Shown: one piece after another, positions 5,193 to 45,812 of the stretch | Layout: the number at the start of each line of letters is the position of its first letter | How positions within the stretch are numbered: the first letter of the stretch is position 1 | NCBI RefSeq assembly: GCF_001011035.1 | Contig: NZ_CP011492.1 | Span: 4,943,001-5,007,000 of the forward strand | DNA length: 64,000 bases | Source: Streptomyces sp. CNQ-509 | GTDB lineage: Bacteria > Actinomycetota > Actinomycetes > Streptomycetales > Streptomycetaceae | Direction: 5' to 3' | Translations under genes and position numbers: made by a program | The notes under the pieces: model-generated | Databases searched by the model: none | What the model saw: the letters and a program-made list of their open reading frames with translations, nothing else | What the model was told of the DNA's origin: nothing

Positions 5193-5219
5193 TCAGGCGG
5201 AGTGCGAGACTGGGTACCG

Positions 5220-6413
5220 ATGAGCGACTCCCCCCTCCGCGCCCGCGCGGAGATCGACCTCACCGCGTACGGCGCGAACATCCGCGCCCTGCGCGGCATC
5301 GCCCCGCGCGCGCAGTTCATGGCCGTCGTCAAGGCCGACGCGTACGGCCACGGGATGCTGCCCTGCGTCCGCGCGGCGCGCGCCGCCGGCGCCGAGTGGA
5401 TCGGGACCGCCACCCCGCGGGAGGCGCTGGACCTGCGCGCCGCCGGCGACCGGGGCCGGATCCTGTGCTGGCTGTGGACGCCCGGCGGGCCGTGGCGGGA
5501 GGCCGTCGAGGCGGACCTCGACATCACCGTCAGCGGCCTGTGGGCGCTGCGCGAACTGCTGCCCGCCGCCCGCGCCGCCGGGCGCACCGCGCGCGTGCAG
5601 CTCAAGGCCGACACCGGCCTCGGCCGCAACGGCTGCCTCGCCGCCGACTGGCCGGAGCTCGTCGCCGCCGCCCGCGCCGCCGAGGCCGAGGGCGCCATCG
5701 AGGTCACCGGCGTCTGGTCGCACTTCGCCTGCGCCGACGAGCCGGGACACCCCTCCGTCCGCAGCCAGCTCGACGCCTTCCACGACGCCCTCGCCGTCGC
5801 CGACCGCGCGGGACTGCGCCCCGAGGTGCGGCACATGGCGAACTCGCCCGCCATGCTCACCCTCCCGGAGGCCCACTTCGACCTCGTCCGGCCCGGGATC
5901 GCGTCGTACGGGCTGTCGCCGAGCCCCGAGGTGGGCGCTCCCGCGGACTTCGGGCTGCGCCCCGTGATGGCGGTCAAGGCGTCGCTGGCGCAGATCAAGG
6001 AGGCGCCGGCCGGCCTCGGTATCTCGTACGGGCACCACTACGTCACCCCGGGCCGGACCACCCTCGCGCTCGTGCCCCTCGGCTACGCCGACGGGGTGCC
6101 GCGGCACGCGTCCGGTACGGGCCCCGTGCTGGTCGCCGGGAAGTGGCGGACGGTCGCGGGGCGGGTCGCGATGGACCAGTTCGTCGTGGACCTGGGCGGG
6201 GACACCGCGGCGGCGGGCGACGAGGCGGTGCTCTTCGGCGCCGGGGACCACGGCGAGCCGACGGCGGAGGACTGGGCGCGGGCGGCGGGCACCATCGGGT
6301 ACGAGATCGTCACGCGGATCGGACCCCGCATACCGCGCGTGTACGTGGGCGGTGCGGGGGATGCCACCCCCATGGACACCGACACGGACCGCCCCGGGCC
6401 CCGCCATGGCTGA
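5220..6413 (+). CDS. alr: Alanine racemase (PLP-dependent)
   Basis: Interconverts L- and D-alanine, supplying D-Ala for peptidoglycan. The pyridoxal-phosphate lysine lies in AVVKADAYGHG near residue 38. The substrate-side region SYGHHYVTPGRTTLALVPLGYADG carries the C-terminal-domain catalytic Tyr, and GRVAMDQFVVDLG is the usual Alr signature. The 397-residue length is normal (about 370-400). The ATG at 5220 (MSDSPLRARAEIDL) is preferred over one six codons upstream because family members begin just before RAxxxIDLxA; no strong ribosome-binding site is seen. The 3' end overlaps the next start by eight bases, implying translational coupling to the hydrolase. Confidence 0.95.
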   Translation: MSDSPLRARAEIDLTAYGANIRALRGIAPRAQFMAVVKADAYGHGMLPCVRAARAAGAEWIGTATPREALDLRAAGDRGRILCWLWTPGGPWREAVEADLDITVSGLWALRELLPAARAAGRTARVQLKADTGLGRNGCLAADWPELVAAARAAEAEGAIEVTGVWSHFACADEPGHPSVRSQLDAFHDALAVADRAGLRPEVRHMANSPAMLTLPEAHFDLVRPGIASYGLSPSPEVGAPADFGLRPVMAVKASLAQIKEAPAGLGISYGHHYVTPGRTTLALVPLGYADGVPRHASGTGPVLVAGKWRTVAGRVAMDQFVVDLGGDTAAAGDEAVLFGAGDHGEPTAEDWARAAGTIGYEIVTRIGPRIPRVYVGGAGDATPMDTDTDRPGPRHG

Positions 6414-7707
6414 CCCCCTCGCCACCCCCGTCCCCGTCTCCGGACCCGGCGGCTGGGCGAGGGCCGGCCGGCGCGCCGGTATCGCCGGCGTCGCCATCGG
6501 CGTGCTCGCCGCCGGGGCCGCCGCGGGCGTGGCCGTGGAGCGCCTGGCGATGGGCCGCGACGTACGCCGCAGGGCCCGGCAGGCGCTCGACGCGGCCGGT
6601 CCGTACGGCACCTTCCGCGGCACCTCGGGCACGGCCGTCGCGGACGACGGCACCGAGCTGTACTACGAGATCGAGGAGGCGGACGACTTCCCGCCCGTAC
6701 TCCCCGACGGCACACCCCCCGATCCGCTGACCGCCGCCCCCCGCCGCCGGCGCCGCCGCTTCGCGGGACGCCGCGACCCCGCGCCGCTCACCGTCGTCTT
6801 CTGCCACGGCTACTGCCTCACCCAGGACTCCTGGCACTTCCAGCGCGCCGCGCTCCGCGGCCGTGTCCGCACCGTCTACTGGGACCAGCGCAGCCACGGC
6901 CGCTCCGCCCGCGGCATCTCCCAGCTCGCCGGCGACGAGCCGGTCACCATCGACCAGCTCGGCCGCGACCTCAAGGCCGTCGTCGACGCCGCCGCCCCCG
7001 AGGGCCCGCTGCTGCTCGTCGGGCACTCGATGGGCGGCATGACGATCATGGCCTTCGCCGACCAGTTCCCCGACGCGGTACGGGACCGGGTGGCCGGCGC
7101 CGCGTTCCTCGGCACCTCCGCGGGCGACCTCGGCCGGGTGACGTTCGGGCTGCCCGCGGCCGGCGCCTGGGCGGTACGGCACTTCGTGCCCGGCGTCCTG
7201 AAGGCCCTCGGCAGCCGCGCCGAGCTGGCCGAGCGCGGCCGGCAGGCGACGGCCGACCTCTTCGCGGGGATCATCAAGCACTACTCGTTCGGCACCGAGG
7301 GCGTCGACCCGGGCGTCGCGCGCTTCGCCGAGCGGCTGCTGGAGAGCACGCCGATAGACGTGGTCGCCGAGTTCTACCCGGCGTTCGCGGCGCACGAGAA
7401 GGACGAGGCGCTCGCGCTCCTCCGCGACCTCCCCGGGCTCGTCCTCGTCGGCGACCGCGACATGGTCACGCCCCCGGAGCACAGCGAGCGGATCGCCGCG
7501 CGGCTGCCCGGCGCCACGTTCGAGGTCATCGAGGACGCCGGGCACCTGGCCATGCTGGAGCGCCCGGAACGGGTGAACGACGCGCTGGCCGCGCTGCTCG
7601 CCCGCGCGGGCGAGCGGCTGCCCACCGGGCCCGGGCCGGAGCCGGGGGTGGGACCGGGGGCGGGGCCCGTACGGCGGCCGCGCGGCACGTCGCGCCGGAC
7701 CCTCTAG
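6406..7707 (+). CDS. Alpha/beta-fold hydrolase, membrane-anchored
   Basis: A 433-residue serine hydrolase. The N-terminus carries one hydrophobic segment (about residues 20-45, AGIAGVAIGVLAAGAAAG) that may anchor it in the membrane. The catalytic core shows the oxyanion region FCHGYCLTQDSWHFQR, the YWDQRSHGRS strand, the nucleophile elbow GHSMGGMT, Asp in LVGDRDMVTPPEH, and His in DAGHLAMLERPE. Its substrate is unknown. Its start overlaps the end of alr by eight bases. Placement between alr and tsaE is seen in many actinomycetes, though no functional tie is established. The stop codon TAG lies inside the left arm of a long inverted repeat. Confidence 0.88.
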   Translation: MADPLATPVPVSGPGGWARAGRRAGIAGVAIGVLAAGAAAGVAVERLAMGRDVRRRARQALDAAGPYGTFRGTSGTAVADDGTELYYEIEEADDFPPVLPDGTPPDPLTAAPRRRRRRFAGRRDPAPLTVVFCHGYCLTQDSWHFQRAALRGRVRTVYWDQRSHGRSARGISQLAGDEPVTIDQLGRDLKAVVDAAAPEGPLLLVGHSMGGMTIMAFADQFPDAVRDRVAGAAFLGTSAGDLGRVTFGLPAAGAWAVRHFVPGVLKALGSRAELAERGRQATADLFAGIIKHYSFGTEGVDPGVARFAERLLESTPIDVVAEFYPAFAAHEKDEALALLRDLPGLVLVGDRDMVTPPEHSERIAARLPGATFEVIEDAGHLAMLERPERVNDALAALLARAGERLPTGPGPEPGVGPGAGPVRRPRGTSRRTL

Positions 7708-31554: not shown

Positions 31555-31814
31555 GTCTGGGGGACTTTCCTTCCCGGAGGGCCCCGGACGCCGGGCCCGG
31601 GGTGGAGAGAGGCTCTTGTCAGGCTACGGGCATATATGACTGTTATTCAGTATTGGGCGGTTTGCGGCGCCCGTGGCGGCGGTTGCGCCCGCCGTACGGC
31701 GGCTGCGCGCCGTGCCGCGAAGGCCGACGCACGGTGGCTGTACGGCGCGGGTGCGGACAGAATCGACGTGGGCACGTGGACTGCCGCAACGGGGCGACAG
31801 GACGGGAGGCATCC
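31555..31814. promoter_or_regulatory. Divergent promoter region, sugar dehydrogenase homologue / glpD
   Basis: A 260-bp spacer with an AT-rich island, 31628-31657 (CATATATGACTGTTATTCAG), that holds ACTG-N5-CAGT. This is the only low-GC patch in the region and the best candidate for the promoter elements of either gene. No assigned operator is recognised. Confidence 0.45.
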
Positions 31815-33521
31815 GTGAAGACAGCGGTACTGGGGCCGGCCGAGCGCGGCGCGGCCCTCGCACAGATGGCCGAGCGCGAGCTGGACCTGCTGGTCGTCGG
31901 CGCCGGCGTGGTCGGCGCGGGCACCGCGCTGGACGCGGCGACCCGCGGCCTGGCCACCGGGCTGGTCGAGGCGCGGGACTGGGCGTCGGGCACGTCGAGC
32001 CGGTCGAGCAAGCTCATCCACGGCGGGCTGCGCTATCTGGAGATGCTGGACTTCGCGCTCGTCCGCGAGGCGCTGAAGGAGCGCGGGCTGCTCACCGAGC
32101 GCCTGGCGCCGCACCTCGTCAAGCCGGTGCCGTTCCTCTATCCCCTCAAGCACCGCGCCTGGGAGCGGGCGTATGCCGGCTCCGGCGTGCTGCTCTACGA
32201 CGCCATGTCCGTCGCCCGCGCACACGGCCGCGGCATGCCCGCGCACCGTCACCTCTCCCGCTCGCACGCCCTGCGTGTCGCGCCGTGTCTGCGGAAGGAC
32301 GCGCTCGTCGGCGCACTGCAGTACTACGACGCGCAGGTCGACGACGCCCGTTACGTCGCCACGCTCGTGCGCACCGCCGCGCAGTACGGGGCGCAGGTCG
32401 CCAACCGCGCGCGGGTCGTGGGCTTCCTGCGGGAGGGCGAGCGCGTCGTGGGCGCGCGGGTGCACGACCTGGAGCAGGGCGGGGAGTTCGAGGTACGGGC
32501 GCGGCAGGTCGTCAACGCCACCGGGGTGTGGACGGACGAGACGCAGGCGATGGTCGGCGAGCGCGGGCAGTTCCACGTGAGGGCGTCGAAGGGCATCCAC
32601 CTCGTCGTACCGAAGGACCGCATCCACTCCACCTCCGGCCTCCTCCTGCGCACCGAGAAGAGCGTGCTCTTCGTCATCCCCTGGGGGCGGCACTGGATCA
32701 TCGGCACCACGGACACCGACTGGGACCTCGACAAGGCCCATCCCGCGGCCTCCTCCGCCGACATCGACTACCTGCTGGAGCACGTCAACGCCGTGCTCGC
32801 GGTGCCGCTGACGCGAGACGACGTCGAGGGCGTGTACGCGGGCCTGCGGCCGCTGCTCGCCGGCGAGTCCGACGCGACCAGCAAGCTGTCGCGCGAGCAC
32901 ACCGTGGCGCACCCGGTGCCCGGGCTCGTCGTCGTCGCGGGCGGCAAGTACACGACGTACCGGGTGATGGCCAAGGACGCCGTCGACGAGGCCGTGCACG
33001 GGCTCGACCAGCGCGTCGGGCCGTGCGTCACGGAGGACGTGCGGCTGCTGGGCGCGGAGGGGTACCAGGCGCTGTGGAACGCGCGGGCGCGGACCGCGGC
33101 GCGGACGGGGGTGCACGTCGCGCGGGTGGAGCACCTGCTGAACCGGTACGGGTCGCTGTCGGAGGAGGTGCTGGAGCTGATCGAGCGGGACCCGTCGCTC
33201 GGCCTGCCGCTCACGGGCGCGGACGACTATCTGCGCGCGGAGGTCGTCTACGCGGCCTCGCACGAGGGCGCGCGCCACCTCGACGACGTGCTGACGCGGC
33301 GTACCCGGATCTCCATAGAGACCTTCGACCGCGGTACGCAGTGCGCCGCCGAGGTCGCCGCGCTGATGGCGCCGGTGCTCGGCTGGGACGGCGACCAGGT
33401 CGAGCGTGAGGTGGCGCACTACGACAAGCGGGTCGAGGCCGAGCGCGAGTCGCAGCGGCAGCCGGACGACCAGACGGCGGACGCGGCGCGGCTGGGCGCA
33501 CCGGAGATCGTGCCGTTGTGA
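31815..33521 (+). CDS. glpD: Aerobic glycerol-3-phosphate dehydrogenase (FAD)
   Basis: Oxidises sn-glycerol 3-phosphate to dihydroxyacetone phosphate at the membrane, passing electrons to quinone. The 568 residues contain the FAD-binding LLVVGAGVVGAGTALDAATRG, the GTSSRSSKLIHGGLRYLE substrate/FAD signature, QVVNATGVWTDE, IPWGRHWIIGTTDTDWD, and VVVAGGKYTTYRVMAKD. The GTG start follows GGGAGG by six bases. There is no glpF or glpK beside it, so this is a stand-alone copy. Confidence 0.95.
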   Translation: MKTAVLGPAERGAALAQMAERELDLLVVGAGVVGAGTALDAATRGLATGLVEARDWASGTSSRSSKLIHGGLRYLEMLDFALVREALKERGLLTERLAPHLVKPVPFLYPLKHRAWERAYAGSGVLLYDAMSVARAHGRGMPAHRHLSRSHALRVAPCLRKDALVGALQYYDAQVDDARYVATLVRTAAQYGAQVANRARVVGFLREGERVVGARVHDLEQGGEFEVRARQVVNATGVWTDETQAMVGERGQFHVRASKGIHLVVPKDRIHSTSGLLLRTEKSVLFVIPWGRHWIIGTTDTDWDLDKAHPAASSADIDYLLEHVNAVLAVPLTRDDVEGVYAGLRPLLAGESDATSKLSREHTVAHPVPGLVVVAGGKYTTYRVMAKDAVDEAVHGLDQRVGPCVTEDVRLLGAEGYQALWNARARTAARTGVHVARVEHLLNRYGSLSEEVLELIERDPSLGLPLTGADDYLRAEVVYAASHEGARHLDDVLTRRTRISIETFDRGTQCAAEVAALMAPVLGWDGDQVEREVAHYDKRVEAERESQRQPDDQTADAARLGAPEIVPL

Positions 33522-33784
33522 ACGTTCCGCTGTGACCGTGCCCCCGCGGGGGTGCGCGCGCCGGTGCTCCCGCGGGTGCCGCGGGGGGCCGGCGCCGCGG
33601 TGGCGGCATGCCGGTTGTAGGTGCATGTAAGCAACCGCGGCACGGGACTTGGGCGGCGTCAACGCCGCAGACCGGGCCGCCCGCGGCGGGAGATCGATCG
33701 TGGCAAACCTCGCCCGGCGCTCAGGGGTGTCCGTGCGATAAGACACAATGGAGGTCCTGCCGGGGTGAATCGCTGAGGGGATCG

Positions 33785-35980
33785 ATGGGGCGCGAAGGGG
33801 ACGGCGCGACGGGTCGGCTGCTGGCCGGCCGCTATCGGCTCGGGGAGGTGCTCGGCCGCGGTGGCATGGGCACCGTCTGGCGTGCCACGGACGAAGTGCT
33901 GGGCCGTGCGGTGGCGGTCAAGGAGCTGCGGCTGCCCACCAGTGTGGACGAGGACGAGAAGCGCCGCCTCGTCACGCGAACGCTCCGCGAGGCGAAGGCG
34001 ATCGCCCGCATCAGGAACACCGGCGCGGTCACGGTCTACGACGTGGTGGACGAGGACGACCGCCCCTGGATCGTCATGGAGCTGATCGAGGGCCGCTCGC
34101 TCTCCGACCTCACCCGCGACGACGGCCCGCTGACGCCCCGGCGCGCCGCCGAGGTCGGCCTCGCCGTGCTCGACGTGCTGCGCGCGGCCCACAGCGAGGG
34201 CATCCTGCACCGCGACGTGAAGCCGTCGAACGTGCTCATCTCCGACGACGGCCGCGTCGTGCTCAGCGACTTCGGCATCGCGCAGGTCGAGGGTGACCCG
34301 TCCATCACGACGACGGGCATGCTCGTCGGCGCCCCGTCGTACATCTCGCCCGAGCGCGCCCGCGGGCAGAAGCCGGGCCCCCCGGCGGACCTGTGGTCGC
34401 TCGGCGGGCTGCTGTACGCGGCGGTGGAGGGGCATCCTCCGTACGACCTGGGGTCGGCGATCGCCACCCTGACCGCGGTGATGACCAAGCCCATCGATCC
34501 GCCCGAGAACGCCGGTCCGCTGGAAGACGCCATCTACGGACTGCTGCGCAAGGACCCCGGCGAGCGGCTCGACGACGCGGGCGCGCGGGCGCTGCTGCGC
34601 GCCGTCGTCGACGCGCCGGAGGACGTGCCCGGCGAGCCCTCGGCGGCGACGGCGCCCACGACGATGGTGCCGCTGCCGGTGGTGCCGGACGCGGGCGGCG
34701 GGGCGGGCGCGGGGCAGGGCACGGCGGCGCCGGCGCGGCGGAAGACGGAGCGGAAGAAGACGTCGCGCAGACTGACTTCGGGGGCGCAGGGAAGCAGGCG
34801 TACGGCGGGACGGGCCGGGACGGCCGCGGGCGCGTCGGGCGCCGGTGCCGCCGCTGCCGGTGCGGGTTCCGCCGCGGCGGCGGAGGCGGCGGCTCCGGCC
34901 GACGCGCCGGCACCGCCGCAGACGCCGCCGCGCTCCGACGCCGCGCCCGGTACGCCGGATCGGCCGACGGCGCCGCCGCGGTCCGGGGCGGCTGCCGCCG
35001 GGACCTCGGGCGCGGCCGCCGCCGGTCCGGGGACGGCCGGGGCCGGAGGCCGGGAGGCCGGTGCGTACGGCGCCGAGGGCCCCGCCGCCCGTACGGCGGT
35101 CACGGGTGCGGCACCGCCGGCGGCCCGGGCACGGGCGGGCGCCGGTGACCTCGCCGCGCGCGTGGCGGCGCTGCCCCGGCGCACGCTGGCGGTCATCGCC
35201 GCCGTGGTGGCGCTGGCGATCCTCGGCACGGTGCTCGCCGTGGCGCTCGGCGGCGACGACTCCGACTCGGGCACGTCCGGCGACGGCGGCGGGCAGAGCG
35301 CGGGCGCGGGCACGCAGGACGGCAAGGAAGCGAAGCAGGACAAGGACCAGGGCGGCAGCGGCGAGAACGACGCCCAGGAGGACAAGCGCAAGCAGGACGA
35401 CGACGGCGCGGCGGGCGACGAGGACGACGACTCCTCGGGCCCGGGGTCCGGAAAGAACGAGGACGGGGGCGACGACGGCTCCGGATCCGGTTCCGGAAAG
35501 GACCCCACGAACGTACCCGGCGGTTACGCGACGCTCACGGAGCCGGAGTTCAAGTTCTCCGTCGCCCTCCCCGACGGCTGGAAGCGCACCGCCACCTCGC
35601 CGGGCGGCGGCGGCGCGATCCTCAGCGGATCGTCCTCCTTCCCGCGCGTGCAGATCGACTTCACGTCCCAGCCCAACAACACCGAGGGCGGCGCGCTGTC
35701 GAACTGGCAGAAGATAGAGGGCGCCGTGAGTTCCTCCAGCTCCGGCTACCGCAAGATCTCGATGAAGGAAATCGAGTGGCGCGGTTATCCCACGGTCGCG
35801 GACTGGCAGTTCAGCCGCGTGCAGGACGGCCAGAGGATCAGGGTCCTGGACCGCGGATTCGCCGTCGACGACAACCACGGCTACGCGATAATGATCAGTT
35901 GTCCGGAGAACGAGTGGAACGGCGCGGAGTGCCGCGGGCTGCGCGACACGGCGTTCGAAACCTTCAAGCCGGTCGACTAA
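33785..35980 (+). CDS. Receptor Ser/Thr protein kinase with extracellular sensor domain (731 aa)
   Basis: A membrane-spanning kinase. The cytoplasmic catalytic domain (residues 15-275) is complete: GRGGMGTVWRA glycine loop, Lys in VAVKELRLP, HRDVKPSNVL catalytic loop, DFGIAQVEG, and YISPERARG. A basic and Ala/Pro-rich juxtamembrane stretch (about 300-460) precedes one helix (about 468-490, TLAVIAAVVALAILGTVLAV). An acidic, Gly/Ser-rich linker leads to a C-terminal external domain, FKFSVALPDGWKRTATSPGGG ... ETFKPVD. There are no PASTA repeats. This domain resembles those of the two other kinase genes nearby. The ligand is unknown. Confidence 0.93.
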   Translation: MGREGDGATGRLLAGRYRLGEVLGRGGMGTVWRATDEVLGRAVAVKELRLPTSVDEDEKRRLVTRTLREAKAIARIRNTGAVTVYDVVDEDDRPWIVMELIEGRSLSDLTRDDGPLTPRRAAEVGLAVLDVLRAAHSEGILHRDVKPSNVLISDDGRVVLSDFGIAQVEGDPSITTTGMLVGAPSYISPERARGQKPGPPADLWSLGGLLYAAVEGHPPYDLGSAIATLTAVMTKPIDPPENAGPLEDAIYGLLRKDPGERLDDAGARALLRAVVDAPEDVPGEPSAATAPTTMVPLPVVPDAGGGAGAGQGTAAPARRKTERKKTSRRLTSGAQGSRRTAGRAGTAAGASGAGAAAAGAGSAAAAEAAAPADAPAPPQTPPRSDAAPGTPDRPTAPPRSGAAAAGTSGAAAAGPGTAGAGGREAGAYGAEGPAARTAVTGAAPPAARARAGAGDLAARVAALPRRTLAVIAAVVALAILGTVLAVALGGDDSDSGTSGDGGGQSAGAGTQDGKEAKQDKDQGGSGENDAQEDKRKQDDDGAAGDEDDDSSGPGSGKNEDGGDDGSGSGSGKDPTNVPGGYATLTEPEFKFSVALPDGWKRTATSPGGGGAILSGSSSFPRVQIDFTSQPNNTEGGALSNWQKIEGAVSSSSSGYRKISMKEIEWRGYPTVADWQFSRVQDGQRIRVLDRGFAVDDNHGYAIMISCPENEWNGAECRGLRDTAFETFKPVD

Positions 35981-36117: not shown

Positions 36118-39100
36118 GTGGACGACTACGCGGGCCGAGTGCTCGCCGACCGTTACCGGCTACCGGCTGCCGTCGACGCCGAACCCATCCACACGCGCGC
36201 CTTCGACACTTATAGCGGGCAGGACGTCCTCATCGGGCAGGTGCCGCTGCCGGAGATCGTCGAGGCCGAGTTCATCGAGGACGGCGGCGGCGCGGATCCC
36301 TCCGGGTACGGCGACGGGGCGGGTCGCGGCGCGGCGAGCGCGGTGGTGCAGCGCGCGATGGACGCGGCCCGCGCGGCGGCGGCCATTCCGGACCACCCCC
36401 GGCTGGCGCAGGTCTTCGACGTCTTCGAGGAGGGCGGCAGCCTCTGGATCGTCAGCGAGCTGGTGCCCGCGCGGACGCTCGAAGGGCTGCTGGAGGAGCG
36501 GCCGTTGAGCCCGTACCGCGGGGCGGAGGTCGCGGCGGACATCCTCACGGCGCTGCGCGCGCTGCACGCGCACGGCTGGACGCACCGGAACATCACGACG
36601 CGCACGGTGCTTGTCTGCGACGACGGCCGGGTGGTCCTCACGGGCCTGGCGTCGGGCGCGGCGGAAGAGGCGCTGTGCGGCTACGATCCGCTGCCCCCGC
36701 CGCCCGGCCGCGGCGAACCCCCGCGCCCGTCGGGCAGCCCGGGGCCCCGCCCCGGCGTCACCGCGGAGCAGGCGGCGGGAGCGGAACCGGGTCCCGGCGA
36801 CGCGCCGGGCCTGCCGCAACTCCCGGACCCGGCGACGGGGTTCCTGCCGGCGCAGGGCGCGCCCGGCGCTCCGCGGGGTGCGGTCGGCGGGCCGGAGGGC
36901 GGTATCTTACCGCCGGGGTGGGACGACCGCGGGGGACCGTACGGCGACAGCGCGGAGGCGCGCGGTGGTGCGGGCCCGTACGGCACGCCGCCGTACGACG
37001 AGGACGACGAGGTGTGGCGCTCCGCTCCGTACGGGGCGGGTCGCGGCACTGATCCGGCGGAGGACGAGCCGCGGGGCGGCGACGGCCGCGAACCGGGCTG
37101 GGGCGCGCCGGGCGGCTCGGCCACCGGAGCGGGCACGGGCGAAGCCGCGGCGGAGGGCTGGCCGTTCGGCGCGTGGCAACAGGGCGGCCCGGCAGCGGGT
37201 GCGACGGGCGGCGAGCGCGGCGGCCCGCAGGGCGGACACCCGGGCGGCGGTGCCGCCGGGACCCCCGGGCAGAGGCCCGGCGTGCCGGGCGGTGGACCGG
37301 CTCAGCAGGCGCAGAGGAGTGGCGCGCAGTCGGGCGGCGGTGCCCCTGTGGCGCGCGGGCAAGGATCCGGGGCCCCGGGCGTAGGCCCGGCCCAACGGCC
37401 GTACGCCGGTGGTGCGCAGGGCGGCGCCGCGCAGGGTGCGCCGGGAGGGCAGCCGGGCGGCGGCCCTGCCGGGGCCCGCGGGCAGGGGCCCGCGGTGCCG
37501 GGTGGTGGACCGGTTCAACAGCCGTACGGGAGCGGGCCGCAGGGCGGCCCTCCCGCGGGGCAGGGGCCTCGCGGTGCCGGACCGGCCCCGCGCGAGGGGC
37601 AGTCGGGCGGTCGCCCCGTCCCCGCCGGTGGCGGGGACGTGCCCGCGGCGCGGGCCGGGGTGATGGCCGCGTACCAGGCCGGTACGCGCGCCGCCGAGGC
37701 ACGCATCGCCGGTGGCGCCGGCGGCGCGAGACCTCCGGTGGTGCCGGGGCAGGCCGCGCGTACGCCCGAGGCCGGCCGGCCTCCCGGTGCGGGGGCGGGT
37801 CCGGCGTACAGCGACCGCATCGACATCGGCGGCGGTCCTCCCGCGCAGGGCGGCGCCGCCAACCCGGCCCCGCAGACCGCCGGTTCGCCGGATACCGGCG
37901 CCCCCTGGGACGACCTGCCGCACGACGCGGGCGACGACGGCTACGACGAGTACGGCACCGCGGACCCCTACGGCACACGGACGGCCGCCCCCGGCGGCCC
38001 GTACCGGTCCACAGGCGCGCCCCCCGGCGCCCCGGCCCCCCACGCCGGCGGCCCTGTTCCGCCCGGCGCCCCCGGCTCCGGCGGCGCACCCGGTGCGCCC
38101 GTGCCCGGCCGCGCGCCCGGCGCCACCGGTGCGCCGGGTTCCTACGGCTCCGGCCCGCCCGGCGGTGCGCCCGCGGGCGGTGCGCCCGGTCCGTATCGCG
38201 GTACGGGCGCACCCGGCGCCCACGGCGGCATCGGGTCCGGCTCCTACGACCACTCCGGTCCTGCCTACGGCGGTCCGGGCACGGCCGCCGGAACGCCCGC
38301 GCCCGGCGGGCCCCCCGCATCCCGCGGGCCGGGACCGGGCCCCGCGCCCGGCGGCGCCGCCCCCGGCCACCACCACCCCACCGACCGTGCCCGCCCGCCC
38401 GGCGCCCCCGGGGGCCACCCCGCCGCCGGCCAGCCCGGCGGTCGCGGTCCCGGTGCCTACGGCACCCCCGGCGCCAGGCCCGCCGAGTTCGCCGAGCCCG
38501 AGCAGCAGTCCCTTCCCGACTCCCTCCCCGGCGGCGCCTCCTACGGCGGCAGCCTGCCCGGGGTGCGCCCCGGGGCGTCCATCGCCGTGCCCGTCGGCGC
38601 GCAGGCCGTGCCCGCGGACCGCGACGCGCCGCCGGGACCCGAGGCCGGCGGGGCCACCCGCTACCCCGGGCCCAGCACCCGGCTCGCCGCCGAGCGCGCG
38701 CGGACGACGCGGATGCAGGTCGTCGGCGCCGTCACCGAGCGGTGGGCGCCCGAGCAGGCCGGGCCCGTCCACGAGCACTGGCAGCTCGCGCCCCCCGTCG
38801 GCCCCGCCGCCGACCTCTGGGCGCTCGGCGCGCTGCTCTTCCGCGCCGTCCAGGGGCACTCCGCGTACCCCGAGGAGGACGTCGCCGAGCTGGTGCAGCT
38901 CGTCTGCTCCGAGCCCCCCGCGCACGCGGAGGAGTGCGGGGCCCTGCGCCCCGTCGTGGAGTCGCTGCTCCGCCAGGACCCCACGGAGCGGCCGGACTTC
39001 GAGGAGCTGCGCGGCTGGCTGCGGTCCCTGATCCGGACCGCGCCCGAGCCCGGCATCGGCAGCCGTACGGTCACCGTGCCGCAGCACGGCACCGGCCGCG

Positions 39101-39960
39101 GCGGCGATCCGCGGCGGCTGCCGATACTGCGCAGGCGCGGCGAGCTGATGCGCAGACGGCGCGCGAACAAGTCGCCGGTGCCGGTGCGGAAGCGGCACAA
39201 ACGCCGGGCGCGGCGCGGTCCGCGCGGGCCGCGCAGCCTCGGCCGTACGCTCATCGCCCTGATCTTCGTCGCCATGGCGGGCGCCATCGCGTACGCGGCG
39301 ATGTTCATGCCCGGGGCCGACGAGGCGGGCCGCGACCAGCGCAGCGCCGTCGGCGCGGGCCGCGGGGACGAACCGGGGGAGCCGGCGGCACCGCCCTCGG
39401 ACTCCGACGACACGAGCGAGGCCGGGGAACGCGGGCAGCCGAAGGAGTCCGGGGACGCCCCCGACAAGCCGAAGGACGACGGGCAGGGCAGCGGCGAGGG
39501 TTCCGAACTGCCCGACGGCTTCGTGCTCCGCGAGGACCCGGCGGGCTTCGAGGTCGCCGTCCGCGACGACTGGCAGCGCACGGCCGGGAGCGACGGCCAG
39601 GTCAGCTACGTCGGCGGGGACTACGAACTCCTCGTCGTCCCCGGCCGCGACGGTGTCGGCGAGTTCGGCAGCGATCCGATGGCGTACCAGCAGCAGAGCG
39701 AGCCGGAGCTGGACGAGTACCGCGACTCCGCGTGGGCGCAGGCCGACGGGCTGCGGCGGATCGAGGTCGGGCAGCGGGTCATGGCGGAGGGCGAGTTCGA
39801 CTGGACCGACGGCAGCGGGCGCCAGGTGCACGCCCGCAACCTGGCGATGATCTGGGACGACCATTACCACGTGGTCCTGCTGATCGGCCCGGACGGGAAG
39901 AACGACGAGGTGGAGCGGTTCCACCGGATCGCGGCGGAGAGCTACCGGCCCACAGGGTGA
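36118..39960 (+). CDS. Membrane pseudokinase with a ~670-residue Gly/Pro-rich insertion (1280 aa)
   Basis: The kinase fold is present but catalytically degenerate. There is no glycine loop and no VAIK Lys near residue 35. The catalytic loop reads HRNITTRT (residues 156-163) instead of HRDxKxxN, and the DFG site reads TGLAS (175-179). From about residue 190 to 860 lies a low-complexity Gly/Pro/Gln/Ala region with imperfect repeats (PGGGPAQQ, PGGGPVQQPYG, PGVGPAQRPYA). The kinase fold then resumes at RWAPEQ (875-880, an APE motif) with DLWALGALLFRAVQG. A membrane helix (about 1041-1063) and an external domain follow. The GTG at 36118 has GGGGAGG. Likely a scaffold or allosteric partner of the flanking kinases. 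Confidence 0.9.
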   Translation: MDDYAGRVLADRYRLPAAVDAEPIHTRAFDTYSGQDVLIGQVPLPEIVEAEFIEDGGGADPSGYGDGAGRGAASAVVQRAMDAARAAAAIPDHPRLAQVFDVFEEGGSLWIVSELVPARTLEGLLEERPLSPYRGAEVAADILTALRALHAHGWTHRNITTRTVLVCDDGRVVLTGLASGAAEEALCGYDPLPPPPGRGEPPRPSGSPGPRPGVTAEQAAGAEPGPGDAPGLPQLPDPATGFLPAQGAPGAPRGAVGGPEGGILPPGWDDRGGPYGDSAEARGGAGPYGTPPYDEDDEVWRSAPYGAGRGTDPAEDEPRGGDGREPGWGAPGGSATGAGTGEAAAEGWPFGAWQQGGPAAGATGGERGGPQGGHPGGGAAGTPGQRPGVPGGGPAQQAQRSGAQSGGGAPVARGQGSGAPGVGPAQRPYAGGAQGGAAQGAPGGQPGGGPAGARGQGPAVPGGGPVQQPYGSGPQGGPPAGQGPRGAGPAPREGQSGGRPVPAGGGDVPAARAGVMAAYQAGTRAAEARIAGGAGGARPPVVPGQAARTPEAGRPPGAGAGPAYSDRIDIGGGPPAQGGAANPAPQTAGSPDTGAPWDDLPHDAGDDGYDEYGTADPYGTRTAAPGGPYRSTGAPPGAPAPHAGGPVPPGAPGSGGAPGAPVPGRAPGATGAPGSYGSGPPGGAPAGGAPGPYRGTGAPGAHGGIGSGSYDHSGPAYGGPGTAAGTPAPGGPPASRGPGPGPAPGGAAPGHHHPTDRARPPGAPGGHPAAGQPGGRGPGAYGTPGARPAEFAEPEQQSLPDSLPGGASYGGSLPGVRPGASIAVPVGAQAVPADRDAPPGPEAGGATRYPGPSTRLAAERARTTRMQVVGAVTERWAPEQAGPVHEHWQLAPPVGPAADLWALGALLFRAVQGHSAYPEEDVAELVQLVCSEPPAHAEECGALRPVVESLLRQDPTERPDFEELRGWLRSLIRTAPEPGIGSRTVTVPQHGTGRGGDPRRLPILRRRGELMRRRRANKSPVPVRKRHKRRARRGPRGPRSLGRTLIALIFVAMAGAIAYAAMFMPGADEAGRDQRSAVGAGRGDEPGEPAAPPSDSDDTSEAGERGQPKESGDAPDKPKDDGQGSGEGSELPDGFVLREDPAGFEVAVRDDWQRTAGSDGQVSYVGGDYELLVVPGRDGVGEFGSDPMAYQQQSEPELDEYRDSAWAQADGLRRIEVGQRVMAEGEFDWTDGSGRQVHARNLAMIWDDHYHVVLLIGPDGKNDEVERFHRIAAESYRPTG

Positions 39961-40074
39961 CGGGGCGGCGGGCCCCCGGCCGGGCCCGCCCCTTCCGTCC
40001 CGTACGCGCCACACGCCCCCCGCGTGACCCCGCGCGCCCCCTTCCCGTCACTTCGCTCCGCTACCCTCCCGCCC

Positions 40075-41325
40075 ATGTCCGACCAGGCCACCCCTCTCGC
40101 CCGCCGCCTCGGCGTCGGCGACGCCGTGCTCGTCGGCCTCGGCGCCATGCTCGGCGCCGGGATCTTCGCCGCCCTCGCGCCCGCCGCCCGCGCCGCCGGC
40201 TCCGGGCTGCTCATCGGGCTCGGCGCCGCCGCCGTCGTCGCGTACTGCAACGCCACCTCCTCCGCCCGTCTCGCCGCCCGCTACCCCGCCTCCGGCGGCA
40301 CCTACGTCTACGGCCGCGAGCGCCTCGGCCCCTTCTGGGGCTACCTCGCCGGGTGGGCGTTCGTGGTCGGCAAGACCGCGTCGTGCGCGGCGATGGCGCT
40401 GACGGTCGGCGCGTACGCCTGGCCGGAGCAGAAGCACGCCGTCGCGGTGGCCGCCGTCGTGGCGCTGACGGCCGTCAACTACCGCGGGGTGCAGAAGTCC
40501 GCGCTCCTCACCCGGGCGATCGTCGCGGCCGTGCTCGCGGTGCTGGCCGCCGTCGTCGTGGCGGCGTTCACCAGCGGCGCCGCCGAGGCGGACCGGCTGC
40601 GGCCGGGCGGCGACACCTCGCTGTGGGGGGTGCTGGAGGCGGCCGGGCTGCTGTTCTTCGCCTTCGCCGGGTATGCGCGCATCGCCACGCTGGGCGAGGA
40701 GGTGCGCGATCCGGAGCGCACCATCCCGCGCGCGGTGCCGGTGGCGCTGGGCATCACGCTCGTCGCGTACGCGGCGGTGGCGGTGGCCGTCCTCGCCGTC
40801 CTCGGCGCCGGCGGTCTCGCGCACGCGACGGCGCCGCTGTCGGACGCGGCGTCGGCGGCGGGCGCGGGGTGGCTGGAGCCGGCGGTGCGGGTCGGGGCGG
40901 CGGTGGCGGCGCTGGGCTCGCTGCTGGCGCTGATCCTCGGGATCTCCCGTACGACGCTCGCGATGGCCAGGGACCGCCATCTGCCGCACGGTCTCGCCGC
41001 GGTGCACGAGCGGTTCCGGGTGCCGCACCGGGCGGAGCTGGCGGTCGGCGCGGCGGTGTCGGTGGCGGCTGCGACAGTGGACGTGCGCGGGGCGATCGGG
41101 TTCTCGTCGTTCGGGGTGCTGCTGTACTACGCCGTGGCCAACGCCTCGGCGTGGACGCTCCACCCGGAGGAGGGCCGCCCGCCGCGCGTGGTGCCGGCGG
41201 TGGGTCTTGCGGGGTGCGTGGTGCTGGCGTTCTCGCTGCCGCCGGCGTCGGTGGCGGCGGGCGCGGGGGTGCTGGCGGCGGGCGCGGTGGCGTATGCGGT
41301 ACGGGGACGGTGGGCGGAGCGGTGA
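40075..41325 (+). CDS. APC-family amino acid/polyamine permease
   Basis: A 416-residue polytopic transporter, about 12 helices, of the amino acid-polyamine-organocation superfamily. The N-terminal GVGDAVLVGLGAMLGAGIFAAL has the unwound GxG substrate-binding helix typical of APC members. YPASGGTYVYGRERLGPFWGYLAGW and FFAFAGYARIATLGEEVRDPERTIPRAV are further family hallmarks. The substrate is not known. No Shine-Dalgarno is evident before the ATG. Its last bases overlap a GTG of the next gene, so the two may be co-translated. It interrupts the kinase cluster but may be an independent insertion. Confidence 0.9.
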   Translation: MSDQATPLARRLGVGDAVLVGLGAMLGAGIFAALAPAARAAGSGLLIGLGAAAVVAYCNATSSARLAARYPASGGTYVYGRERLGPFWGYLAGWAFVVGKTASCAAMALTVGAYAWPEQKHAVAVAAVVALTAVNYRGVQKSALLTRAIVAAVLAVLAAVVVAAFTSGAAEADRLRPGGDTSLWGVLEAAGLLFFAFAGYARIATLGEEVRDPERTIPRAVPVALGITLVAYAAVAVAVLAVLGAGGLAHATAPLSDAASAAGAGWLEPAVRVGAAVAALGSLLALILGISRTTLAMARDRHLPHGLAAVHERFRVPHRAELAVGAAVSVAAATVDVRGAIGFSSFGVLLYYAVANASAWTLHPEEGRPPRVVPAVGLAGCVVLAFSLPPASVAAGAGVLAAGAVAYAVRGRWAER

Positions 41326-41339
41326 CGGAAGGCGGCGCG

Positions 41340-42392
41340 GTGACCGGCTCCGCGGTGCTCCTCGCGCGGGCGCGGGCGCAGTGCCTCGCGGGAGGCGTGC
41401 GGTGCGCCGGCGCGGAGGAGGTCGTGGCGCGCGTCTTCGCCGTGCAGGCGCAGGACCTGGAGGCCGCGGCGCTCGGGCTGCGGGCGCGCGCGTACGGGCT
41501 CACGCGCACTGCCGTGCGCGAGGCGCTGGAGGAGCGGCGGACCCTGGTCCGCGGCTGGTTCATGCGCGGCACGCTGCACCTCGTACCCGCGGCCGACGTG
41601 CACTGGCTGCTCGCCCTCTACGGCCCCCGCCTCGTCTCCCGCGCCGCCCGGCGCTACCGCGACCTCGGTCTGGACGAGGACGTGTACGCGCGCGCGGAGC
41701 GCGTCGTCGTGGACGCCGTCGCGGCGCACGGGCCGCTGACCCGCGCCGAGTTGGCCGAGCGGCTGGCGCGCGTCGGCGTCGAGCCCGGCGGGCAGGCGCC
41801 GTTCCACGTCATCCGCAGGGCGGCGCTCGCGGGGCTGGTCTGCCACGGGCCGCTGCGGGCGGGGGAGCCCACGTACGTCGCGCTGCGCGACTGGCTGCCG
41901 CCCCCGGCAGGACCGCAGCCGGCCGGCGACGCCGCGGTGCGCGAGCTGGTCCGGCGCTACCTCCGCGGCCACGGACCCGCCGCCCCGGGCGACTTCGCCG
42001 CCTGGTCCGGCCTGCCACCGGGCACGGCCCGCCGCGTATGGCCGGAGCCGGCGCCGTACGGGCAGGGTGCGGAAGAACCACCCGGAACGGGCGACCAGCG
42101 CCCGGACGAGCCGGGACCGCCTCCCGACGTGCGTCTCCTCCCCGCCTACGACGACTACTGGCTCGGCTGGCGCGACCGCGACGCCGCCATCCCCCGGGAC
42201 TTCATCCGCTCCGTCCGCCCCGGCGGCGGGCAGATTCGCGCCGCTGTTACCGTAAATGGCCGCGCGGCCGGCACATGGACCCGCCCGCGGCCGGGAAACG
42301 TGCAGGTCAGCATCTTCGCCGAAGGCCCCGACCCGGTTGCGGCGGATGTCACGGCGGAGGCCGCGGATGTCGCACGTTTTCTACAGAGCTGA
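41340..42392 (+). CDS. Winged helix DNA-binding domain protein (HTH_42/YcaQ-like)
   Basis: A 350-residue protein of the AlkZ/YcaQ-like family, some members of which are DNA glycosylases that unhook crosslinks; most actinobacterial members are uncharacterised. Recognisable parts are VARVFAVQAQDLEAAALGLRAR, RGWFMRGTLHLVPAADVHWLL (core), LTRAELAERLARVGVE (winged helix), and LLPAYDDYWLGWRDRD near the C-terminus. The GTG at 41340 has GGAAGG seven bases before it. A GTG at 41322 overlaps the permease stop and is the alternative. It ends 44 bp before the next kinase gene. Confidence 0.82.
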   Translation: MTGSAVLLARARAQCLAGGVRCAGAEEVVARVFAVQAQDLEAAALGLRARAYGLTRTAVREALEERRTLVRGWFMRGTLHLVPAADVHWLLALYGPRLVSRAARRYRDLGLDEDVYARAERVVVDAVAAHGPLTRAELAERLARVGVEPGGQAPFHVIRRAALAGLVCHGPLRAGEPTYVALRDWLPPPAGPQPAGDAAVRELVRRYLRGHGPAAPGDFAAWSGLPPGTARRVWPEPAPYGQGAEEPPGTGDQRPDEPGPPPDVRLLPAYDDYWLGWRDRDAAIPRDFIRSVRPGGGQIRAAVTVNGRAAGTWTRPRPGNVQVSIFAEGPDPVAADVTAEAADVARFLQS

Positions 42393-44186: not shown

Positions 44187-45812
44187 ATGACGGAGACCGC
44201 CGTAGGCAACCCCACCGCTTCCGCTTCCGACGGCGCCCGCACCGCCGGCGCCGTCGCCGCCGAGTTCGTCACCCCCGCGCTTGTCGAGCGCCTCACCCGC
44301 GGCGTCGCCGGCACCGGCACCGTCGCCGTCCGGTCCCCGCTCACCGGCGACGTGCTGGCCGACGTGCCGGAGGCCGGGCCCGCGGACGTGGAGGCCGCGT
44401 TCGAGCGGGCCCGCGCCGCACAGCGCGCCTGGGCGGCCAGGCCCGTACGCGAGCGGGCCGCCGTGCTGCTGCGCTTCCACGACCTGCTCCTGCGCGACCA
44501 GGACGAGGTGCTGGACCTCGTGCAGTTGGAGACCGGCAAGGCGCGGCTGCACGCGCACGAGGAGGTGCAGTCCGTCACCCTGGCCGCCCGCCACTACGGC
44601 CGCAGGGCCCCCGCCTACCTCGGCCCCAAGCGCCACACCGGCGCGCTGCCGACGCTGACCAAGGTCACGGAACTGCGCCACCCGCGCGGCGTCGTCGGCC
44701 AGATCGCGCCCTGGAACTACCCGCTCGAACTCTCCGTCGGCGACGCCCTGCCCGCCCTCGCCGCGGGCAACGCCCTCGTCATGAAGCCCGACTCCAAGAC
44801 CCCGCTGACCGCCCTCTGGGCGCGCCGGAAGCTGGTCGGGGCCGGGCTGCCGGAGGAGGTGTGGCAGGTCGTGATCGGCCCGGGGCCCGTCGTCGGCCCC
44901 GAGATCGTCCGGCACGCCGACTACGTCTCCTTCACCGGCTCCACCCGCACCGGACGCGAGGTCGCCCAGGGCGCCGCGGCCCGGCTCGTCGGCGCCTCGC
45001 TGGAACTGGGCGGCAAGAACCCCATGCTGGTGCTCGCCGACGCCGACGTGGAGAAGGCGGCGGAGGGCGCGGTGCGCGCGGCGTTCGCGTCGGCGGGGCA
45101 GTTGTGCATCTCCGTCGAGCGGCTGTACGTGCACGAGTCGGTCGCCGACGCCTTCCTCGCCCGCTTCGTCGCCAGGACCAGGGCCCTGCGGCTGGGCAAC
45201 ACCCTCGGCTACGGCGCCGACATGGGCTCGCTGGTCAGCGCCCAGCAGTTGGAGACCGTCACCCGGCACGTGGACGAGGCGGTCGGCAAGGGCGCCGAGG
45301 TGCTGGCCGGCGGGCGGGCGCGGCCCGACGTGGGCCCGTACTTCTACGAGCCGACGATCCTCGACGGCGTCGAGCCCGGCATGACCGTCTGCGACGAGGA
45401 GACCTTCGGGCCGGTCGTCTCGGTCTACCGCTTCCGCGACGAGGACGACGCCGTCGCGCGCGCCAACGCGACGCCGTACGGGCTGAACGCGAGCGTGTGG
45501 ACGAAGGACGGCCGCCGGGGCCGCCGGATCGCGGCCAGGATCCGGTCGGGCACGGTGAACGTCAACGAGGCGTACGGGGCCGCGTATGGCAGCGTGCAGG
45601 CGCCCATGGGCGGAATGAAGGACTCCGGGATCGGCCGCCGGCACGGCTCGGAGGGGATCCTGAAGTACACGGAGTCGCAGACGGTGGCGGAACAGCGGGT
45701 GGTACCGCTGGCGCCGTTCGCGCTCGGGCCGCTGCGGTACGACGACGACAAGAGTTACGCGGCCTTCATGAGCCGCGGACTGCGCGCGCTGAAGGCGCTG
45801 CGGTTCCGCTGA
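44187..45812 (+). CDS. gabD2: Succinate-semialdehyde dehydrogenase (NADP-type)
   Basis: An aldehyde dehydrogenase of 541 aa. Family marks are the PWNYPLELSVGDALPALAAGN cofactor region, SFTGSTRTGREV, the general base Glu in LELGGKNPML, and the catalytic Cys in GQLCISVERLYV. EETFGPVVSVYRF and APMGGMKDSGIGRRHG are near the C-terminus. The pattern and length match the actinobacterial SSADH (GabD2) that feeds GABA carbon or a bypassed TCA cycle into succinate. No gabT is adjacent. Substrate assignment by family is fairly good but not proven. Confidence 0.87.
   Translation: MTETAVGNPTASASDGARTAGAVAAEFVTPALVERLTRGVAGTGTVAVRSPLTGDVLADVPEAGPADVEAAFERARAAQRAWAARPVRERAAVLLRFHDLLLRDQDEVLDLVQLETGKARLHAHEEVQSVTLAARHYGRRAPAYLGPKRHTGALPTLTKVTELRHPRGVVGQIAPWNYPLELSVGDALPALAAGNALVMKPDSKTPLTALWARRKLVGAGLPEEVWQVVIGPGPVVGPEIVRHADYVSFTGSTRTGREVAQGAAARLVGASLELGGKNPMLVLADADVEKAAEGAVRAAFASAGQLCISVERLYVHESVADAFLARFVARTRALRLGNTLGYGADMGSLVSAQQLETVTRHVDEAVGKGAEVLAGGRARPDVGPYFYEPTILDGVEPGMTVCDEETFGPVVSVYRFRDEDDAVARANATPYGLNASVWTKDGRRGRRIAARIRSGTVNVNEAYGAAYGSVQAPMGGMKDSGIGRRHGSEGILKYTESQTVAEQRVVPLAPFALGPLRYDDDKSYAAFMSRGLRALKALRFR

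Follow-up and report, generated by a model that had tools for sequence, protein, structure and literature searches.

The 64,000 nucleotides of Streptomyces sp. CNQ-509 analyzed here (positions 4,943,001 to 5,007,000 of NZ_CP011492.1, hereafter the window; the host genome is a single contig of 8.04 Mb) contain a gene for a membrane-anchored protein of 1280 residues (36118..39960, + strand) whose kinase fold has lost its catalytic residues and is interrupted, within the activation segment, by an insert of about 660 residues. We put at about 0.55 the probability that this pseudokinase, dead as an enzyme and spanning the membrane once, is a partner of the adjacent active kinases, above all of K1, the active Ser/Thr kinase encoded directly upstream (33608..35980, + strand; the position of PkaH/SCO4775 in S. 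coelicolor). The evidence lies in its kinase ancestry, in the loss of catalysis in every orthologue examined, in a constant pairing with K1 and in the conservation of a short island of sequence inside an otherwise variable insert. The island, the pairing and a link to a gene of known phenotype are new.

A Kinase Fold without Its Catalytic Residues

Our comparison covers 127 sequences (126 distinct, since L093 and L094 are identical): 87 from Streptomyces, the window protein included, and 40 loci that represent 10 further genera of the family, with the weak matches in g15, g18 and g28 and the strong ones in g21, g26 and g30 left out. The 86 other Streptomyces orthologues all have both kinase lobes complete, orthologues that do not having been excluded. 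Pfam Pkinase matches the window protein in two stretches that represent both lobes in order (E 8e-12). The N part, residues 1-193 (36118..36696, + strand), holds the kinase N-lobe, helices C to E, a catalytic loop that reads HRN and the residues G-L-A at the DFG position; residues 853-1005 (38674..39132, + strand) hold the end of the activation segment (AERARTTRMQVVGAVTERWAPE) and the C-lobe. Compared as profiles with the active K1 kinases, the N part aligns at E 2.5e-26 and the C part at E 5.8e-19, and orthologues that lack the insert align with the K1 profile over 262 columns (E 2.6e-41). Because of these profile matches the C part is, by sequence, a kinase C-lobe, which upholds what the original prediction had supposed of residues 861-1030.

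In the window protein the beta3 Lys has become Gly, the Glu of helix C Ala, the HRD Asp Asn and the Asn of HRDxxxxN Thr, and the glycine loop is gone. The pseudokinase claim of the original prediction is thus borne out, and the losses are more complete than it had held, the helix C Glu and the HRDxxxxN Asn having also disappeared. It had read TGLAS in place of DFG; the loss stands, while the placement has to be shifted, G-L-A occupying the DFG position and the T aligning one residue earlier. Throughout Streptomyces the same state recurs: all 87 rows have Ala for the helix C Glu, Asn for the HRD Asp, Thr for the Asn that follows and G-L-A for DFG, and the beta3 position is Arg in 84 of them and Gly in three (window, L039 and L040). 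In a family alignment of 44 rows, made up of the 40 orthologues from other genera and four Streptomyces rows, the HRD Asp is replaced by Asn in 43 and by His in one, the DFG Asp by Gly in 44/44, and the beta3 Lys is found in none (R 18, E 10, D 5, H 5, F 3, others 3). The metal-binding Asp position is Gly in all 127 sequences; catalytic residues are retained in none of the 127, so that the search for a catalytically intact orthologue, a test set beforehand, found none. Judged from these alignments, the loss of catalysis is old and common to the whole family. The stretch between beta3 and helix C has also grown: over the 87 rows its median length is 44 residues (range 32-105), compared with 14 both in K1 and in K3, the second active kinase of the cluster in the window genome (42437..44032, + strand); this is a gain of some 30 residues, and in the window, where the stretch has 34, of 20.

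All 21 pseudokinases in our tree fall into one clade (support 100/100) that excludes the active kinases found in their clusters, and the 21 K1 kinases likewise form a single clade (100/100). A pseudokinase clade that stands apart in this way makes one early origin the simplest reading of the tree. Among the Streptomyces rows the change from beta3 Arg to Gly occurs only in the window's clade (window residue 40, nucleotides 36235-36237; L039 and L040). In these three sequences the inserts are also longer than in any other, and the island is divergent, possibly a further step of relaxation.

A different account of the altered pocket is that it binds nucleotide, the protein being a nucleotide sensor or an unusual catalyst, as the authors who described the ActPs2 pseudokinases suggest for binding. 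In their AlphaFold3 model with ATP (interface predicted template modeling score, iPTM, 0.87) the ligand is bound via R42 and R177 (PMC12599244), residues that we equate by position (R42 and R175 in L061) with the beta3 Arg of 84/87 Streptomyces rows and with the Arg after HRN in 87/87. Against this, Gly replaces the beta3 Arg in the window and in its two nearest relatives, L039 and L040, the 40 rows from other genera show a variety of residues at beta3 and have the second Arg in only four cases, and Gly stands at the metal-binding position throughout; we regard nucleotide binding as an improbable basis for the protein's function.

Constant Pairing with K1

Of the 37 genomes searched within the genus, 35 have the pseudokinase gene (E at most 1e-20), and one of the two misses is only 79% complete. 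Queried with an insert-less orthologue, and with 28 candidates scored in each genome, all 47 Streptomyces-genus genomes (own genome included) gave a match, as did none of 13 genomes from other families in the order. Matches were obtained in 99 of 101 family genomes, many of the weak ones being ordinary kinases.

K1 lies directly upstream in 110 of the 112 loci that have at least 2.2 kb of upstream sequence, 39 of them from other genera (37 loci without upstream context were left out). Two loci depart from this: L087, whose N part occupies an open reading frame (ORF) of its own, and L090, with a gap of 2.3 kb. In 66/66 complete one-strand loci the order is a glycerol-3-phosphate dehydrogenase-type gene (glpD), K1, the pseudokinase, 0 to 4 kinase ORFs and an aldehyde dehydrogenase gene (aldh), and in seven of these clusters one kinase ORF stands between glpD and K1; these kinase numbers are ORF counts, and some of the ORFs overlap. 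In the window the borders are glpD at 31602..33521 and the aldehyde dehydrogenase gene at 44187..45812, both on the + strand. Within Streptomyces the C-lobe part is conserved to nearly the same degree as the K1 kinase domain, with median identities to the window of 80% and 83%, respectively (71 loci).

Between the pseudokinase and K3 the window has an amino-acid permease gene and an AlkZ-like (PF06224) gene (40024-42392). The permease (window and L039) and the AlkZ-like gene (window) occupy the place that further kinases take in other species. Four loci of other genera (L165, L168, L176 and L178) have an extra kinase gene between glpD and K1; the relative of this kinase in the window genome (L005) lies far off, some 0.1 Mb short of one contig end.

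A Variable Insert with a Conserved Island

The insert occupies residues 194-852 (36697..38673, + strand) and consists of 28% Gly, 19% Pro and 18% Ala, with no Lys or Cys. It is predicted to be disordered, its AlphaFold2 (AF2) confidence score (predicted local distance difference test, pLDDT) being mostly under 50; the insert is also disordered in the model of the short-insert orthologue L061. A large Gly/Pro-rich insert between DFG and APE had been described originally and is confirmed. The imperfect repeats reported with it are real but modest: one three-copy family of 104-nucleotide direct repeats (37226..37542, + strand; 66% and 79% identity to the reference copy), four two-copy families and weak tandem arrays. 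Two other accounts of the insert were rejected: a known folded domain, given no Pfam match up to E 1 and disorder in both models, and a sequencing artefact, given the open frame in 86 other orthologues. The same architecture in open frame in these 86 further Streptomyces sequences means that the insert is not a product of chance.

From the position of the DFG Asp to the APE region the window protein has 697 residues and both active neighbors have 22. The same segment measures 198-725 residues in 80 of the 87 Streptomyces rows, the other seven having escaped the measuring pattern, and 34-160 in the 40 other-genus orthologues, where 39 have at most 80 and only L166 has 160. It therefore exceeds the 22 residues of the active neighbors in all 120 measurable sequences of the 127 (34-725). 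The insert itself ranges from 169 to 696 residues (median 280) in the 86 other complete Streptomyces orthologues; that of the window, originally put at about 670, lies near the top of the range, and its length is thus not typical. On this sampling the long insert is a Streptomyces trait, either gained there or lost outside, the forks of the tree that bear on gain and loss being weak. Since the catalytic loss is family-wide and the long insert is restricted to Streptomyces, the two features have separate histories.

Within this variable sequence lies a 20-residue island, RAARAGAIAAYRAGARAAAR, present in 87/87 Streptomyces sequences. In an alignment of 32 orthologues it forms the one block of invariant insert residues, isolated prolines aside. 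When 20-residue windows of L061 were compared with 21 diverse orthologues, the median best identity was 18/20 for the island and at most 10/20 away from it; the same scan against shuffled inserts gave at most 9 in 660 windows, a maximum that a second stretch, DPEAARRAAIEARAAGGLPA, just passed with 10/20. Identity to the consensus is at least 13/20 in all 87 rows, with a median of 20, and the best of 261 shuffled inserts reached 11/20. The window's own copy, GGDVPAARAGVMAAYQAGTRAAEARIAGGA (residues 505-534; 37630..37719, + strand), is among the most divergent, at 13/20. In the island codons of 86 orthologues, 33,687 silent and 5,886 residue-changing differences were counted among 73,100 codon pairs, and from this large excess of silent change it follows that selection acts on the protein. 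AF2 predicts a helix here amid disorder, at residues 291-317 of L061 and 508-531 of the window protein, both low-confidence regions. The variable tether has 35 to 315 residues on the N side of the island and 70 to 426 on its C side (87 rows). No other clear copy was found in the same genome (next match E 0.9), and a search of solved structures returned no match up to E 1. The island looks like a real working part of the insert. Docking motifs are usually recognized in this way, by the conservation of a short element that variable tethers flank, and we infer that the island may be one.

The conservation of the island bears directly on the proposal that the insert arose passively, through the expansion of GC-rich repeats, in which case the pseudokinase would work and its loop would be irrelevant. 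The fourfold variation in length (169-696) and the imperfect repeats are what such a process might leave behind; GC-rich DNA tends to encode Gly, Pro and Ala, the other frames here giving mainly Arg, Pro, Ala and Gly; and the kinase Greatwall remains active when four residues take the place of its insert (PMC5342071). Yet the island is conserved in 87/87 rows while the rest of the insert varies, silent changes in it far outnumber replacements, and the insert persists in every one of the 87 complete Streptomyces rows (169 residues at its shortest), so that we hold a passive insert to be unlikely.

Lower still do we rate the original suggestion of a condensate-forming scaffold, in which the low-complexity arm would cluster kinases at the membrane. 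The arm is long and devoid of Lys and Cys in the window (Lys is lacking in 61/87 rows and Cys in 84/87), and it has 27 aromatic residues among 654 counted; but aromatics at only about 3-4% and a length that varies widely while the family persists speak against it. We attach no greater weight to the idea that neighboring kinases phosphorylate the arm, which would then recruit readers: active kinases do adjoin, and about 7% of the residues of the window insert are Ser or Thr (family median 10%), but neither is conserved in the island, and elsewhere in the insert no strongly conserved site was found. That the island is an amphipathic helix pinning the loop to the inner leaflet is also very doubtful, for although a helix is predicted and the 20-residue consensus has five Arg, its hydrophobic moment of 0.41 (0.29 in shuffles) is reached by 21% of shuffles, and in the window copy three of the five Arg positions are changed and the moment is matched by 54% of shuffles.

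Membrane Anchor, Extracellular Domain and Gene Layout

The ORF runs from a GTG at 36118 to the stop at 39960, with GGGGAGG, which by eye resembles a ribosome-binding site, just upstream; pattern scans for a promoter and a terminator ahead of the gene found nothing. Behind the kinase part a single transmembrane helix is predicted from hydropathy at residues 1043-1063 (39244..39306, + strand). By the same measure a C-terminal transmembrane segment is present in 87/87 Streptomyces rows and in 39/40 rows from other genera. The one row without it is L175, whose C-terminal part lies in another frame; its extracellular domain is out of frame with the kinase part (4502-6907), the mark of a frameshifted or mis-assembled copy.

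The chain ends in an extracellular domain (residues 1130-1280; 39505..39957, + strand). Its 151 residues are modeled by AF2 at high confidence in L061, and Foldseek places that model close to PsbP (2xb3; E 6e-9, template modeling score 0.73 by target length); a Pfam search and a sequence search of solved structures gave no match. The original prediction had contained neither this PsbP-like domain nor the island. The extracellular domains of K1 and of the pseudokinase share weak similarity only (hhalign probability 27%, E 7e-4). In other genera the chain may stop within 60 residues of the transmembrane helix, the domain being absent from L149-L164, L170-L174 and L183-L188.

Two features of the DNA may be added. 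On the - strand an antisense open frame of 1035 codons crosses the insert (window 36907-40014) and looks like a by-product of high GC content. In L087 (Streptomyces himastatinicus) the gene is split, with the N part in an upstream ORF, through either a frameshift in the GC-rich insert or a faulty assembly of it.

Relation to Known Kinases and Pseudokinases

The closest counterpart in print is ActPs2, a bacterial pseudokinase family described by O'Boyle et al. (2025; PMC12599244), with WP_053198479.1 as its published representative. Its members have Arg for the beta3 Lys in almost all cases, HRN for HRD, a DFG that is lost (deleted in most), about 32 additional residues between beta3 and helix C, a C-terminal transmembrane segment and, in about 90% of them, a disordered activation-loop insert of about 250 residues (PMC12599244). 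Our family is likewise actinobacterial, with beta3 Arg in 84/87 and HRN in 87/87 Streptomyces rows, DFG lost (G-L-A in 87/87, a substitution in the present alignment and a deletion in the review), a beta3-helix C insert of some 30 residues, a disordered activation-segment insert with a median of 280 and a C-terminal transmembrane segment. The differences are that the long insert is missing from our 40 other-genus loci, apart from the 160-residue segment of L166, and that the window protein has Gly at beta3 and an insert of about 660 residues. With every feature compared in agreement, the window protein fits ActPs2, as a member with an extreme insert. The ActPs2 section of the review gives no gene context, partner, function or conserved insert element, and the word Streptomyces is absent from its text (PMC12599244). 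An open-access literature search for "ActPs2" returned no further kinase paper. The island and the SCO4776 link set out below were likewise not found in the published literature searched, although text searches cannot look for a peptide.

The original prediction had held that so long an inserted activation loop was undescribed in a pseudokinase. ActPs2 shows this to be mistaken, and inserts at the same site were in print for Greatwall (PMC5342071) and for the plant receptor-like cytoplasmic kinases of class XI (RLCK XI; PMC9992409). Greatwall/MASTL has a poorly conserved insert of about 500 residues between DFG and APE (PMC5342071) but is an active eukaryotic AGC kinase, whereas the window family is without all catalytic residues. 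The RLCK XI inserts, disordered and of 199-527 residues, resemble ours in belonging to a membrane-attached kinase and in containing short conserved motifs; these proteins are from plants, however, their authors argue that they are not pseudokinases, and the motifs include functional nuclear localization signals (PMC9992409). Mycobacterial MviN/ActPs3 is, like our protein, a membrane-linked actinobacterial pseudokinase, and it is tied to cell-wall metabolism; it differs in having an activation-loop deletion instead of an insertion and is reported to promote the recruitment of an inhibitory protein (PMC12599244).

The Position of SCO4776 in Streptomyces coelicolor

The S. coelicolor kinase genes SCO4775-4779 are pkaH, SCO4776, pkaD, pkaI and pkaJ (Ladwig et al. 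2015; PMC4416010). Two published PkaI peptides (PMC4416010, Table 1) match a single ORF of the L063 cluster, at 14/14 and 13/14 residues. Among the kinase-type genes of that cluster this ORF comes fourth and the pseudokinase second. From the gene order and these peptides it follows that the pseudokinase sits at the position of SCO4776.

SCO4776 is reported to be transcribed constitutively, an extra copy leads to aberrant spores and vancomycin sensitivity, and deletion of the five genes causes a sporulation defect that no single gene restores; the authors attribute the effect to an imbalance of kinase activity and tie the cluster to spore-wall assembly (PMC4416010). In a proteome study SCO4776 is one of the kinases of which S. 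coelicolor contains more than S. lividans does (PMC9739823), which means that the protein is made. If SCO4776 is dead in the way that the residues of all 127 sequences indicate, the phenotype of the extra copy needs a noncatalytic explanation; this is our own reinterpretation.

Discussion

Support for a role as partner comes from the fold having been kept despite the catalytic loss, in 87/87 Streptomyces and 40/40 other-genus rows. ErbB3, of the animal tyrosine kinase family, likewise has HRN for HRD and partners active kinases, although it keeps the beta3 Lys and DFG. The pseudokinase would act by binding and not by phosphorylating: its kinase-like domain and, in Streptomyces, the disordered arm that has replaced the activation segment may hold or tune active kinases or their substrates at the membrane. 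A scaffold that gathers the flanking active kinases, as originally suggested, is plausible, one of them, K1, adjoining the pseudokinase in all 66 complete clusters. More tentatively, and at somewhat less than even odds, we propose that the activation loop has become a tethered arm whose conserved helix docks on PkaH/K1 or on a spore-wall component, giving control without catalysis. The island would be the docking element and the variable Gly/Pro-rich sequence a tether on both of its sides; the activation segment would thus have been turned from a switch for its own kinase into a line cast to others. The partner, the docking and the direction of the effect are what we infer.

Several observations weigh against the role as partner. 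The island is missing from all 40 proteins of other genera, searched over their whole length (best 11/20), their activation segments are at most 80 residues in 39 of 40 cases, and 27 of the 40 lack the extracellular domain; neither the island nor that domain can therefore have been needed for the ancestral role. Within Streptomyces, conservation of the N part is lower than that of K1 (67% against 83%), and in the orthologues of other genera the two parts of the pseudokinase fall far behind K1 (45-48% identity against 76%). Structure prediction, made for L061 and for residues 1-1010 of the window protein, gives the strands and helices of the kinase part in the expected order but at low confidence, mostly under pLDDT 70 in both models (the L061 transmembrane helix is fair), and fold searches with the window model gave no clear kinase: Foldseek listed several kinases, MELK, MEK1, ASK1 and PknE among them, alongside unrelated chains, with no E value better than 0.7, and VIA-align returned mostly helical bundles (best Z 6.8, around residues 888-981) and a single KSR-MEK chain (Z 5.0). 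The SCO4776 assignment rests on gene order and peptides and not on the S. coelicolor sequence. In the interaction screen of Ladwig et al. the partners of PkaI were PkaI, PkaA and PkaD, with SCO4776 not named, and the genes of the cluster are each transcribed separately with differing expression profiles (PMC4416010). Finally, a survey of 2005 records the catalytic Asp as lacking in none of the 18 S. coelicolor kinases that it lists; in the same survey two of 34 kinase-like sequences of S. avermitilis are without it (PMC1262709).

The island offers a precise target for a first functional test within the ActPs2 insert, which the review of that family calls functionally unclear (PMC12599244), and the combination of a family-wide loss of catalysis with an insert found only in Streptomyces provides a natural series for the gain of a long loop by a pseudokinase. 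The link to SCO4776 would join a family known from sequence alone to existing S. coelicolor mutants, and it would call into question the published view that each of the genes SCO4775-4779 acts through a kinase activity of its own.

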